Shown here piece by piece: positions 1 through 5,831 of a stretch of DNA of 62,127 bases. Below the pieces are notes generated by a model, which was given only the letters and a program-made list of their open reading frames with translations, was not told where the DNA came from and made no database searches. The position numbers were made by a program, and so were the translations under genes. Origin of the DNA: Deltaproteobacteria bacterium RIFCSPLOWO2_12_FULL_60_19 (GTDB lineage Bacteria; Desulfobacterota; Binatia; UBA9968); contig MGSS01000148.1 in NCBI GenBank assembly GCA_001798595.1, positions 1 to 62,127 on the forward strand, given 5' to 3'. How positions within the stretch are numbered: position 1 is the stretch's first letter; each line of letters begins with the position of its first letter.

Positions 1-150
1 AATCAAGTCATCAACAACCGTGACCTCTGTATCCCCGCTAACAGCCAAGCGCTGTGCGAAGAACTTTCTCAATTCTTGGCAGAGTCGTTCCCTTTTGCCG
101 GGCTTCATTACCGTAGGCTTGGGTGAACGCTTGTCGGTCAATGAACTCAT
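1..150 (-). CDS. Partial hypothetical protein running off the left edge
   Basis: An ORF on the minus strand starts with ATG at 150 and stays open to base 1, giving 50 N-terminal residues (MSSLTDKRSPKP...). The visible part is basic and hydrophilic at the N-terminus and then amphipathic (CQELRKFFAQRLAV). I do not recognise a family. There is no strong ribosome binding site (the upstream bases are AT-rich), so the start is uncertain. Because the frame is open to the edge and follows the polarity of its neighbours, it is more likely a truncated gene than chance, but 50 codons is weak evidence. Confidence 0.4.
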   Translation of the reverse strand, partial: MSSLTDKRSPKPTVMKPGKRERLCQELRKFFAQRLAVSGDTEVTVVDDLI

Positions 151-422: not shown

Positions 423-490
423 GCCTAATACCTCCCGTATTAATCAGCGCCATTAACACAAACTCGACCCAATGATTGTCGGTTCAAGGA

Positions 491-556
491 TCAGAAACAG
501 AACGACCCCCTTAGACCGGCAGCAAAATGGCAAAAAATAGGCTCCCATTTTTCCAT
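491..556 (-). CDS. Possible 21-residue micro-ORF with a strong ribosome binding site
   Basis: An ATG at 556 is preceded by AAAGGAGGG at ideal distance and opens 21 codons (MEKWEPIFCHFAAG...) ending at TGA 491-493. It begins 20 bases after the U-tract of the terminator at 576-655. The peptide matches nothing I know. It could be a leader peptide, a small protein, or a decayed gene start whose Shine-Dalgarno sequence survives. Confidence 0.25.
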   Translation of the reverse strand: MEKWEPIFCHFAAGLRGSFCF

Positions 557-575
557 GGCGCCCTCCTTTTAAAAC

Positions 576-655
576 AAAAAGGCCAGCGTCAACCAAAACG
601 GCTGAGCTGGCCTGCCTGTGAGTTAGTCCCCCCCTGGAGGGGTTACTTTCTAACC
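576..655 (-). terminator. Nested stem plus rho-independent terminator (unit A)
   Basis: Read on the minus strand, a GUUAG/CUAAC stem (650-654 with 622-626) encloses a C-run/G-run hairpin. It is followed by a second hairpin whose arms GGCCAGC/GCTGGCC lie at 606-612 and 581-587, and then by a run of U (576-580). The second hairpin is a standard intrinsic terminator. It follows unit B directly, so two terminators sit in tandem before the micro-ORF at 491-556. Its upstream stem has the same nested layout as units B and C but not the same sequence. Confidence 0.65.
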
Positions 656-678
656 GGCCTACCGACTACTCTAACGAA

Positions 679-806
679 TAAAAAAGCCGACCTGATATTT
701 TTACCTGAAGGTCAGCTTATCCCCCAACTGGCTTCTCTTTAGCTCGAGCCCTTTGGGTCATCTGCAAACCAATCGCACGCTATAAAAACAGACCATCAAA
801 AGTGAA
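679..806 (-). promoter_or_regulatory. Promoter + structured leader + terminator (unit B), candidate attenuator
   Basis: On the minus strand: a possible -10 TATAGC (779-784) with a weak -35 TTCACT (801-806, spacer 16). A leader follows that shares about 50 bases of primary sequence with unit C, including ATTGGTTTGCAGAT, ACCCAA, a GGCT/AGCC hairpin, an AAAGAG segment and CAGTTGGG. It ends in a terminator with arms AGGTCAGC (709-716) and GCCGACCT (686-693) before a U-run at 679-685. CCCAA can pair with the later UUGGG or with the earlier UUGG, which would make two exclusive folds. I cannot match it to a known riboswitch class. Confidence 0.5.
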
Positions 807-861
807 TATCAGTGAAATTCCAAGTCCTTCACTTTACCTTCACCCCTGATCTGCCACTTCC

Positions 862-1401
862 TCAGTTCGAAATTTTCACAGCGATGCCAAGAGGTAATGC
901 GCTATCGCCGATACTCAAAGCCGTTCCTAATCTGGATACCTCCCAAGACGGGACAGGTTCTTTCGAGAGTCCTTTCTTCACGGCGCCATCCGCTGTGTCG
1001 GCTTTTTCCGATTTGATGAGGTATTTTACATTAGTCCCGTCGTGACGAGTCACAGATAGGATCACCTCTTTTCGTTCCGCTGCGGACACTGTCTGAAGCA
1101 CGGCAATTTGATTCAAGGCTGCCGTTTTATTCACCGTATCTAAATACATCCACCAGAAGGAGGCGACAAACGTGATAAGAACCAGCCAGGCATATTGACC
1201 TACCCTTTGCTGTCTCTTCAAAAATCGAGTTCTCTGTTTGTCGAAGAAGGTGCGGTAAGCCTGTCTCTCGGCCGCCAATCTCTTGGCAGGATCTTGCTCT
1301 GCCGAACTTTCAGGTTGATCAAATGAAAGTCCGATACTGTTCAATATCATGCCTACGATCACCAACACTAACGGGACGGCGATCAGCAAAAGAGGATTCA
1401 T
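862..1401 (-). CDS. Uncharacterised two-helix membrane protein, 179 aa
   Basis: The frame is open from 1482, but the ATG at 1401 has GGAG six bases upstream (AAAAAGGAGAGAATC), so translation most likely starts there (MNPLLLIAVPLVLVIVG...). Visible parts: a hydrophobic helix at residues 3-22; a charged stretch rich in R, K and E (about 35-70) that may form a coiled coil; a second membrane helix with WWMYLDTV at about 75-92; and a soluble C-terminal part with SVTRHDGTNVKYLIK. No family recognised. It follows unit C (1481-1614), whose terminator lies about 80 bases upstream, so its expression may depend on read-through of that leader. Confidence 0.65.
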   Translation of the reverse strand: MNPLLLIAVPLVLVIVGMILNSIGLSFDQPESSAEQDPAKRLAAERQAYRTFFDKQRTRFLKRQQRVGQYAWLVLITFVASFWWMYLDTVNKTAALNQIAVLQTVSAAERKEVILSVTRHDGTNVKYLIKSEKADTADGAVKKGLSKEPVPSWEVSRLGTALSIGDSALPLGIAVKISN

Positions 1402-1480
1402 GATTCTCTCCTTTTTCAAGCTCTTGATAGCCTTTAGTGCAGGACTCGCACCTCTAAGCAGTCGAACATGCTCGGCACAC

Positions 1481-1614
1481 AATAAAAAAGCCGACCGGGC
1501 GTTTCCACCTCTAAGTCGGCCTATGTCCCAACTGACTGCTCTTTGGCTGGAGAACAGCCCCTTGGGTTATCTGCAAACCAATGGCAACCTAGTAAAAGAG
1601 ACGGGTAAAGTCAA
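1481..1614 (-). promoter_or_regulatory. Promoter + structured leader + terminator (unit C), candidate attenuator
   Basis: On the minus strand: -35 TTGACT (1609-1614, overlapping the stop codon of the DUF2294 gene), a 17-base spacer and -10 TAGGTT (1586-1591). Five to six bases later the leader begins with ATTGGTTTGCAGATAACCCAA, the same block and spacing from the -10 as in unit B. A GGCUG/CAGCC hairpin, CAAAGAGCAG and CAGTTGGG follow, then a terminator with arms GCCGAC (1515-1520 and 1490-1495) and a run of six U (1484-1489). The gene at 862-1401 lies downstream. Two copies sharing promoter, leader and terminator suggest a regulatory RNA rather than a simple terminator. Confidence 0.5.
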
Positions 1615-1988
1615 GAGGTTTTCTTGCGTGGCAGGGTTTTCTCCAAGTCGCGGTCTAGGGTGAACACAATGATTCGTTCGCCGGAGACCGTGCTGATATC
1701 CGTATGGAGACCCACAACCTTCGCGCCAGTGATATCGCTAACAACCTGAGCAAGCACGGGCTTCGCATTTTCAATCAGACTCGCTCGAACCCTCTTGATC
1801 AATTCCACGCCATCCTTGCCCTTGGTTAGCTGTTGTTCCGCCGGGGTCAACACTCCTTTGAGCCGAACCAATATCATGTCTTCCATGACATAGGTGCGGG
1901 CCTCCTTCGGCCCGCGCCCCATATACTCGATCTCAAACCGAACTATGGCCTCACTGATTTCCGCCTCCATTTCGCCCTTCGTCTTCAT
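1611..1988 (-). CDS. DUF2294 domain protein
   Basis: A 125-residue soluble protein (MKTKGEMEAEISEAIVRFE...) that covers the whole length of the DUF2294 family. Family-like features are the opening MKTKGxxEAEISEAI, the central YMGRGPKEARTYV, MxLVRLKGVLTPAEQQL and the end HTDISTVSGERIIVFTLD. The molecular role of the family is not established as far as I know. The ribosome binding site is weak. Its stop codon overlaps the -35 of unit C, so it ends just before the next transcription unit. The family call rests on pattern memory and is fairly secure; function remains open. Confidence 0.75.
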   Translation of the reverse strand: MKTKGEMEAEISEAIVRFEIEYMGRGPKEARTYVMEDMILVRLKGVLTPAEQQLTKGKDGVELIKRVRASLIENAKPVLAQVVSDITGAKVVGLHTDISTVSGERIIVFTLDRDLEKTLPRKKTS

Positions 1989-2130: not shown

Positions 2131-2976
2131 CTAGGCAGCCGCCCCTACCTTAGGCCGCCACTTATCGAACCGGCTTTCAAGCTTGGTTAATAGCTCCATG
2201 CAGGTCATGCCGCTGAGGGCGAAGACCAAGATGCCGACAAACACTTTGTCTGTCTGAAAGGTCGCGCCGGCAACCGTGATCATAAAGCCGATCCCGGCGG
2301 TCGCTGCATAAAGCTCTCCCACCATGACCCCAATCAGGGCCCTGCCGACCCCGAGTCTCAAGCCCGTCAGGATAAAAGGAAGAGTAGAAGGCAGCACCAC
2401 GCTCTTAAAGATCTGCCACTCCGAAGCCCCGAAGCTCCTGGCAGCCAGGAGGAGATTGTAAGGGGTGGTTTTTACCCCGTCGCGCGTATTAATCAATATC
2501 GGGAAGACCGCCCCGAGAAAAATGATCCCGACCTTGGAGAGGATACCGATCCCTAACCAGATAATGACCAGGGGCAAAAGGGCGACGCGCGGGGTAGCGT
2601 TCATGGCGTTGATAAACGGATCAAAGACGTAGGACACCCTTTTGTACCAGCCACACGCAATGCCAAAGGGGACTGCGAACAGTACCGACAGCGCATATCC
2701 CCATGCAAACTCGACACTGCTCACGTAGAGGTCATTATAGATCTCCCCGGAAACGAACAGCCCGACTGCCGCCTTCCAAACGAAAGAAGGCGCGCTCATG
2801 AACATGGGGTTGATCAGTTGGAAGGTGCTTCCGACCAATTCCCAAATGGTGAGAAAGATGACTACCGCGGTGGTTCCCAAAATCTTCTTTTCCTGGGTGA
2901 GGTAGAACCTATAAAGCCAGGAAGCTTCGGCCACTCTAACGTCTAACAATAGCTCTTCAGCCGTCTGATCGGCCAT
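2131..2976 (-). CDS. ABC transporter permease, SsuC/TauC type
   Basis: Inner-membrane permease of the nitrate/sulfonate/taurine importer group. The start at 2976 (MADQTAEELLLDV...) has an excellent AAGGAGGG site, better than the upstream in-frame ATG at 3036, and gives 281 residues, the usual family length. Hydrophobic segments start near residues 35, 85, 110, 140, 170, 210 and 235. The EAA-loop region reads AARSFGASEWQIFKSVVLPSTLPFI, matching the contact loop for the ATPase. No ATP-binding or binding-protein gene lies next to it, so it is an orphan in this window; the substrate cannot be inferred. A terminator follows at 2062-2104. Confidence 0.88.
   Translation of the reverse strand: MADQTAEELLLDVRVAEASWLYRFYLTQEKKILGTTAVVIFLTIWELVGSTFQLINPMFMSAPSFVWKAAVGLFVSGEIYNDLYVSSVEFAWGYALSVLFAVPFGIACGWYKRVSYVFDPFINAMNATPRVALLPLVIIWLGIGILSKVGIIFLGAVFPILINTRDGVKTTPYNLLLAARSFGASEWQIFKSVVLPSTLPFILTGLRLGVGRALIGVMVGELYAATAGIGFMITVAGATFQTDKVFVGILVFALSGMTCMELLTKLESRFDKWRPKVGAAA

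Positions 2977-5831
<2,855 letters not shown>

Follow-up and report, generated by a model that had tools for sequence, protein, structure and literature searches.

The window, that is, the whole stretch of 62,127 nucleotides analysed here, corresponds to an entire contig from a draft genome of 4.19 Mb. Near its start lies a minus-strand locus in which genes for an orphan transporter permease and for MpsC are followed by two copies of a structured RNA (units C and B, the RNA being termed element 1), a second structured RNA (element 2), and small membrane-protein genes. Read along the minus strand, the features are as follows.

2131–2979, minus strand: orphan ABC-transporter permease (TauC-like, PF00528)
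1611–1988, minus strand: mpsC (PF10057, DUF2294-type; Pfam E 2.2e-38), directly upstream of element 1
1586–1614, minus strand: promoter of unit C, with −35 TTGACT at 1614–1609, a 17-nt spacer, and −10 TAGGTT at 1591–1586
1482–1582, minus strand: element 1, unit C (covariance-model match, E 1.2e-25; fold; covariation), with the 5′ strand GGUUUGC at 1579–1573, the 5′ side of P0/P1 at 1570–1562, P2 formed by GGCUG at 1559–1555 with CAGUC at 1538–1534, the P1 3′ side UUGGG at 1531–1527, and terminator arms GCCGACU at 1520–1514 and GGUCGGC at 1496–1490, followed by a U-run
862–1401, minus strand: 179-aa protein with one transmembrane segment, downstream of unit C
779–806, minus strand: weak promoter of unit B, with TTCACT at 806–801, 16 nt, and TATAGC at 784–779
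678–773, minus strand: element 1 with its terminator, unit B (covariance-model match, E 1.6e-23; fold)
575–666, minus strand: element 2 (match to covariance model R2, E 7.8e-19; covariation), comprising CGGUAG, an AG/AG loop, a GCC/GGC helix, an apical hairpin, and the terminator GGCCAGC...GCUGGCC, followed by a U-run
450–556, minus strand: decayed remnant of a small membrane-protein ORF (MEKW...), with a stop after 21 codons
264–422, minus strand: small protein with two transmembrane segments, relatives of which directly follow element 1 in three other loci (L064, L065, and L066)

A preliminary description of this DNA had reported two duplicated promoter–leader–terminator units, B and C, on the minus strand, and direct reading of the sequence located both where they had been placed. 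All of the listed blocks—ATTGGTTTGCAGAT, ACCCAA, a GGCU hairpin, AAAGAG, CAGTTGGG, and GGTCGGC with a T-run—were found in both units in identical order and with identical spacing, and a repeat finder detected two direct repeats between B and C, 72 and 47 nt long, that are in register and 76–83% identical. The duplication is confirmed as real, and the two units are copies of one undescribed structured RNA. The RNA proper spans approximately 773–678 in unit B and 1582–1482 in unit C (minus strand), with the remainder of the originally delimited range being promoter, and both copies fold more stably than dinucleotide shuffles (z of −2.4 and −3.3, respectively). A simple terminator scan, which accepts only stems without interruptions and loops of 3–8 nt, lists none of the terminators described here.

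Of the promoters assigned to the two units, that of unit C is a good sigma-70-type promoter (TTGACT-17-TAGGTT) whose −35 box overlaps the mpsC stop codon, whereas that of unit B is weak (TTCACT-16-TATAGC), with 44 of 200 shuffled upstream regions scoring as well. Nearly all homologues of element 1 have an equivalent promoter upstream, and in most of them the −10 box ends 3–6 nt ahead of the conserved RNA; the conserved 5′ strand is therefore predicted to lie at or near the 5′ end of the transcript. Similarly, the placement of a small membrane-protein gene after each unit was borne out for unit C (ORF 1401–862), but not directly for unit B, which is followed by element 2 (666–575), the decayed ORF from 556, and only then the intact membrane-protein ORF at 422–264.

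A 20-base pattern search first yielded five homologues of element 1. The covariance-model search of related genomes that had been suggested was then carried out with model R1, built from seven sequences, which detected 21 copies of element 1 in 15 of the 25 genomes of the family, with E-values from 1e-25 to 5e-6 that are rough given the short calibration. Outside the family, R1 with stricter filters returned none among the 148 genomes of the class. A strict two-part pattern scanned over 84,980 species genomes matched 12 contigs, all titled as Deltaproteobacteria or Candidatus Binatia MAGs; since this pattern misses part of the family itself, distant homologues could be overlooked. No copy of element 1 was found away from this type of locus. 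Nearly all of the genomes are drafts whose contigs frequently break within these repeats, so that copy numbers are minimal; in four loci (L054, L139, L141, and L056), the contig starts or ends within one of the two elements or at its promoter, suggesting more copies than were assembled. With respect to known RNA families, Rfam 15 gave 0 matches in the whole window at the gathering threshold and chance-level matches only, in the window and relatives, in E-value mode. The statement that the units match no riboswitch class thus agrees with Rfam, and of the two outcomes named in advance as fatal to it, a confident Rfam hit and a lack of covarying homologues, the first was not observed and the second is contradicted by the homologues themselves.

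An unguided MAFFT alignment of the 21 element 1 RNAs (A3) showed a hairpin consisting of P0 (AU..), P1 (CCCRA/UYGGG), an RG/AG 2×2 loop, and P2 (GGYUG/CARCC), followed by a terminator stem, GCCGACY/RGUCGGC. Across P0, P1, P2, and the terminator, 92.3% of the cells were paired, with 21 two-sided changes; none of 500 shuffles was as good, and slid controls reached at most 44% paired. For example, one pair in P1 is A-U in 11 copies and G-C in 8, and a pair in P2 alternates between U-A and C-G. The diverged copy in genome G009 has most of its paired bases replaced while keeping the architecture: P1 is CCUUGA/UCAAGG, P2 is GAUUGUUC/GAACAAUC, and the closing helix considered below is UUGGC/GCCGG. 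In this copy, the U-run has been lost, with the promoter, fold, and element 2 retained. Conserved unpaired bases are few in the elements, being confined to two 2×2 loops, so any aptamer would be simple.

Element 2, which the preliminary description had missed, is another structured RNA and likewise ends in a conserved terminator of its own. Model R2, built from 14 copies, detected 19 clear copies in the family and chance-level matches only (E > 0.002) outside it. The element 2 hairpin also covaries, with none of 500 shuffles as good and, for instance, GCC/GGC swapped for GUC/GAC. Elements 1 and 2 both form structured domains that are conserved, covary, and precede a gene. In most relatives, element 2 comes after element 1, and 14 loci show the order element 1, terminator, element 2, terminator, and then usually a Shine–Dalgarno sequence and ATG, which usually lie within 20–40 nt of the T-run of element 2. 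The copies of element 2 include those of G003 and G009, two genomes in which element 1 is either missing or diverged. In G003 (L137, ~3901–4401, minus strand), the interval from the mpsC promoter to element 2, where element 1 would be expected, is filled by an unrelated long GC-rich hairpin. Behind unit C, the covariance model finds no remnant of element 2; in the interval between unit C and the gene (1401–1481, minus strand), the short sequence CGACT-GCTTAGAGG matches the 3′ half of element 2, with 4 of 500 shuffles as good, a weak hint that one may possibly persist. A weaker element-2-like leader with a terminator (E 7e-7) lies in L140 (G012:C207, 3517–3661, minus strand), directly preceding a different gene, for a secreted-type protein; element 2 may thus occur outside the mpsC locus as well.

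The most constant neighbour of these RNAs is mpsC, which lies upstream of element 1 in most loci (second copies follow another gene) and is more constant than the downstream gene. Of the 148 class genomes, 18 contain mpsC: 15 of these have element 1, two have element 2 with a diverged or replaced element 1, and in the last, G014, the contig ends at the element 1 promoter. No credible RNA copy was found in the seven family members that do not have mpsC. The RNAs therefore track mpsC, occurring in 17 of the 18 mpsC genomes, with the contig of the 18th ending at the promoter. Downstream of the RNAs, the genes comprise the TauC-like permease, small membrane proteins, the 179–192-aa one-TM protein, and a second, diverged mpsC, followed further downstream in some loci by HtpX-like protease, TerC, and PurC-like genes. 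In the window and in L052, the permease gene precedes mpsC, but in many relatives it is found downstream of the RNAs; next to the copy at 2131–2979, no ATPase or binding-protein gene was seen. The 179-aa protein at 862–1401 has no Pfam match and has homologues in L055 and L056, and the MEKW... ORF is intact in relatives, directly after element 2. In L052 (1333–1683), as in other relatives, a second mpsC-like gene, 25% identical to the first, lies downstream. An ORF similar to this second mpsC runs off the start of the window (1–150, minus strand).

Because the name of PF10057 refers to Na+ translocation, a Na+ riboswitch (the DUF1646 motif; PMC9337991) was considered; it was rejected, as Rfam gave no match to it in the window or the relatives. 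A bicarbonate link through DabA/MpsB was likewise rejected, since DabA/MpsB occurs in four of the 25 family genomes, one of them without mpsC, and its distribution does not follow mpsC or the RNAs. In Staphylococcus aureus, mpsC is dispensable for MpsAB function, and its deletion has no growth phenotype (PMC6689103). Given this dispensability and the unlinked, mostly absent DabA/MpsB, a role of MpsC in transporting Na+ or bicarbonate finds no support, and the family name is no evidence for sodium or bicarbonate. The fold of MpsC is predicted with a pLDDT of 89; comparison with solved structures gave no convincing match (none with E ≤ 0.001), and its sequence matched no structure chain.

With regard to a possible switch, the preliminary description had proposed two exclusive folds in which CCCAA pairs either with UUGG upstream or with UUGGG downstream. 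This part was not upheld: the UUGG:CCAA pairing is paired in 67.9% of cells, with 92 of 500 shuffles as good, and several relatives carry TCAG, ACAG, or CGGG as the 5′ bases opposite CCGA or CCAA. Another candidate, GUYGG:CCGAC, in which the 3′ strand of P1 would pair with a terminator arm as an antiterminator, was also set aside; it is paired in 98% of cells but shows no covariation, and in all of the truncated RNAs its energy is less favourable than that of the P1 fold, so it is not preferred. The most likely switch, as judged from modelled folds, is one in which the 5′ strand (GGUUUGC or GUCUG) would pair with the 5′ arm of the terminator, close the hairpin, and block termination. When the RNAs were cut just past this arm, mimicking the RNA during transcription, the 5′ strand was predicted to pair with the arm in 21 of 21 copies of element 1 (for example, GGUUUGC:GCCGACC). 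In its consensus register, the closing helix is paired in 84% of cells, compared with no more than 53% in slid versions. In both elements, the stems with the highest conservation are the terminator arms (1.8–1.9 bits), and this counts for the closing helix, since a passive terminator would not need such conservation. The G009 copy, despite its lost U-run, has a different yet complementary closing pair (UUGGC:GCCGG). Covariation in the closing helix does not exceed chance (217 of 500 shuffles as good), and the energy gained by adding the 5′ strand is not unusual in single sequences relative to shuffles. The full-length minimum-energy folds form the terminator, with the conserved 5′ end of element 1 single-stranded. 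In element 2, the 5′ strand CGGU can pair with its own terminator arm across the invariant AG/AG loop, and in cut RNAs, the 5′ strand is predicted to pair with the 5′ arm in most copies; the predicted closing-helix design appears to be the same as that of element 1.

Taken together, units B and C are probably leader RNAs that control read-through in cis by means of a closing helix that counteracts the terminator, with two gates arranged in series; the most likely role of the elements is that of on/off switches at the beginning of membrane-protein messages. Transcription would start at the element's own promoter, adjoining the mpsC stop codon in the case of unit C, and the RNA would fold as a long hairpin, the conserved 5′ end of which is able to base-pair with the terminator's 5′ arm. 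Were a ligand or a protein to hold the closing helix, formation of the terminator would be prevented and RNA polymerase would continue; otherwise, transcription would stop. In most loci, a second element with its own terminator comes directly next, so that polymerase would have to clear two successive gates on its way to the ribosome-binding site of a gene for a transporter or a small membrane protein. The promoter sequence, the covarying hairpins, the two conserved terminators, their placement, and the co-occurrence with mpsC were observed directly, and on these sequence features the transcription itself, read-through control, its direction, and a ligand are all putative. The position of element 2 just ahead of the Shine–Dalgarno sequence and ATG counts for action in cis, and retention of the promoter, fold, and element 2 in G009, where the U-run is lost, is expected if the whole is one leader transcript. 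Against this reading, the downstream genes form no single clean pathway.

Viewed against known systems, these RNAs have the look of an orphan riboswitch candidate, that is, a structured, covarying RNA with a terminator ahead of membrane-protein genes. The suggestion of an unidentified riboswitch is thus sustained as regards structure, covariation, an own terminator, and absence from Rfam, but not as regards the exclusive folds that it named. Other orphan candidates (PMC7266159, PMC8632094, PMC11109978) are likewise intergenic, structured, and covarying, with a terminator and consistent neighbours; the present RNAs differ in their one-family range, strict mpsC linkage, and tandem partner element. 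Tandem TPP, SAM-II, and c-di-AMP riboswitches with separate terminators have been called pseudo-cooperative (PMC9481103). As in those, two complete folded units with their own intrinsic terminators are placed serially before one gene, a likeness of architecture only; unlike those, the two units here are not alike in sequence, and no ligand is known for either. A tandem of one class is putative: the full R2 model matches element 1 in register, with E-values down to 4e-8 in a 19-kb search. A terminator-free model, R3, gave no such match, but its pairs are shifted by one column through a register error, and its result is given no weight in either direction. The HMP-PP (thiS) riboswitch is a terminator-embedded aptamer (PMC6478431), and in the HMP-PP and PRPP riboswitches there is competition or overlap between aptamer and terminator, with the bound state being ON, as is proposed here; in contrast to both, the hairpin here lies upstream, only the closing helix overlaps the terminator arm, and there is no Rfam match. 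That the elements constitute one new Binatota riboswitch class, or two related ones, arranged as a two-gate tandem in which each element senses a ligand tied to the mpsC/transporter locus and turns the genes on as its closing helix captures the 5′ arm of the terminator, is a possibility to which we give somewhat less than an even chance.

The constancy of the upstream mpsC relative to the variable downstream gene would also fit a 3′-UTR-type small RNA. Element 1 could then be an independent trans-acting RNA, transcribed from its own promoter at the mpsC end, that pairs with target mRNAs by its conserved 5′ end, with element 2 being a separate attenuator, and the good promoter and strong conserved terminator, predicted to lie ~100 nt apart, as well as the 5′ end left single-stranded in the full-length fold, would suit such an RNA. 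We nevertheless consider it unlikely, because copies behind other genes (unit B, G013b, G001b, and G007b) retain the tandem with element 2, the G009 copy has kept its fold and element 2 without the U-run, and complementarity between the 5′ strand and the terminator arm of the same RNA is kept in a conserved register.

Similarly improbable, to about the same degree, is that the elements are not ligand aptamers but binding sites for an antiterminator or repressor protein, possibly MpsC itself. Simple rod-like hairpins with two purine 2×2 loops look less like complex aptamers than like protein sites, and the RNAs co-occur one-to-one with mpsC across the 148 genomes; however, plain linkage would also yield this co-occurrence, the S. 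aureus deletion phenotype speaks against the idea even though the locus there differs (PMC6689103), and with the structural comparisons above, MpsC as an RNA-binding protein by fold was rejected. This alternative overlaps with cis-acting read-through control, which does not fix what holds the closing helix. Finally, it is very unlikely that the pieces insulate genes with no regulation, whether as passive double terminators or as a small repeat family spread within one locus: several copies are indeed clustered in one locus and assemblies break at them in a repeat-like manner, but an insulator needs neither compensatory changes in a hairpin upstream of the terminator, nor a fixed place at the predicted transcript start, nor a conserved 5′ strand, and the copies of element 1 found are confined to this locus type.

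Elements 1 and 2 add two undescribed structured RNAs from an uncultured phylum to the orphan riboswitch-like leaders. Natural variants, such as the lost terminator and swapped helix sequences of G009, render the proposed read-through switch directly testable in vitro. Furthermore, the strict genetic link to MpsC/DUF2294, a protein family of unknown function, gives a handle on both the RNAs and the protein; should the RNA sense a ligand, the nature of that ligand would hint at the roles of MpsC and of the neighbouring orphan permease.
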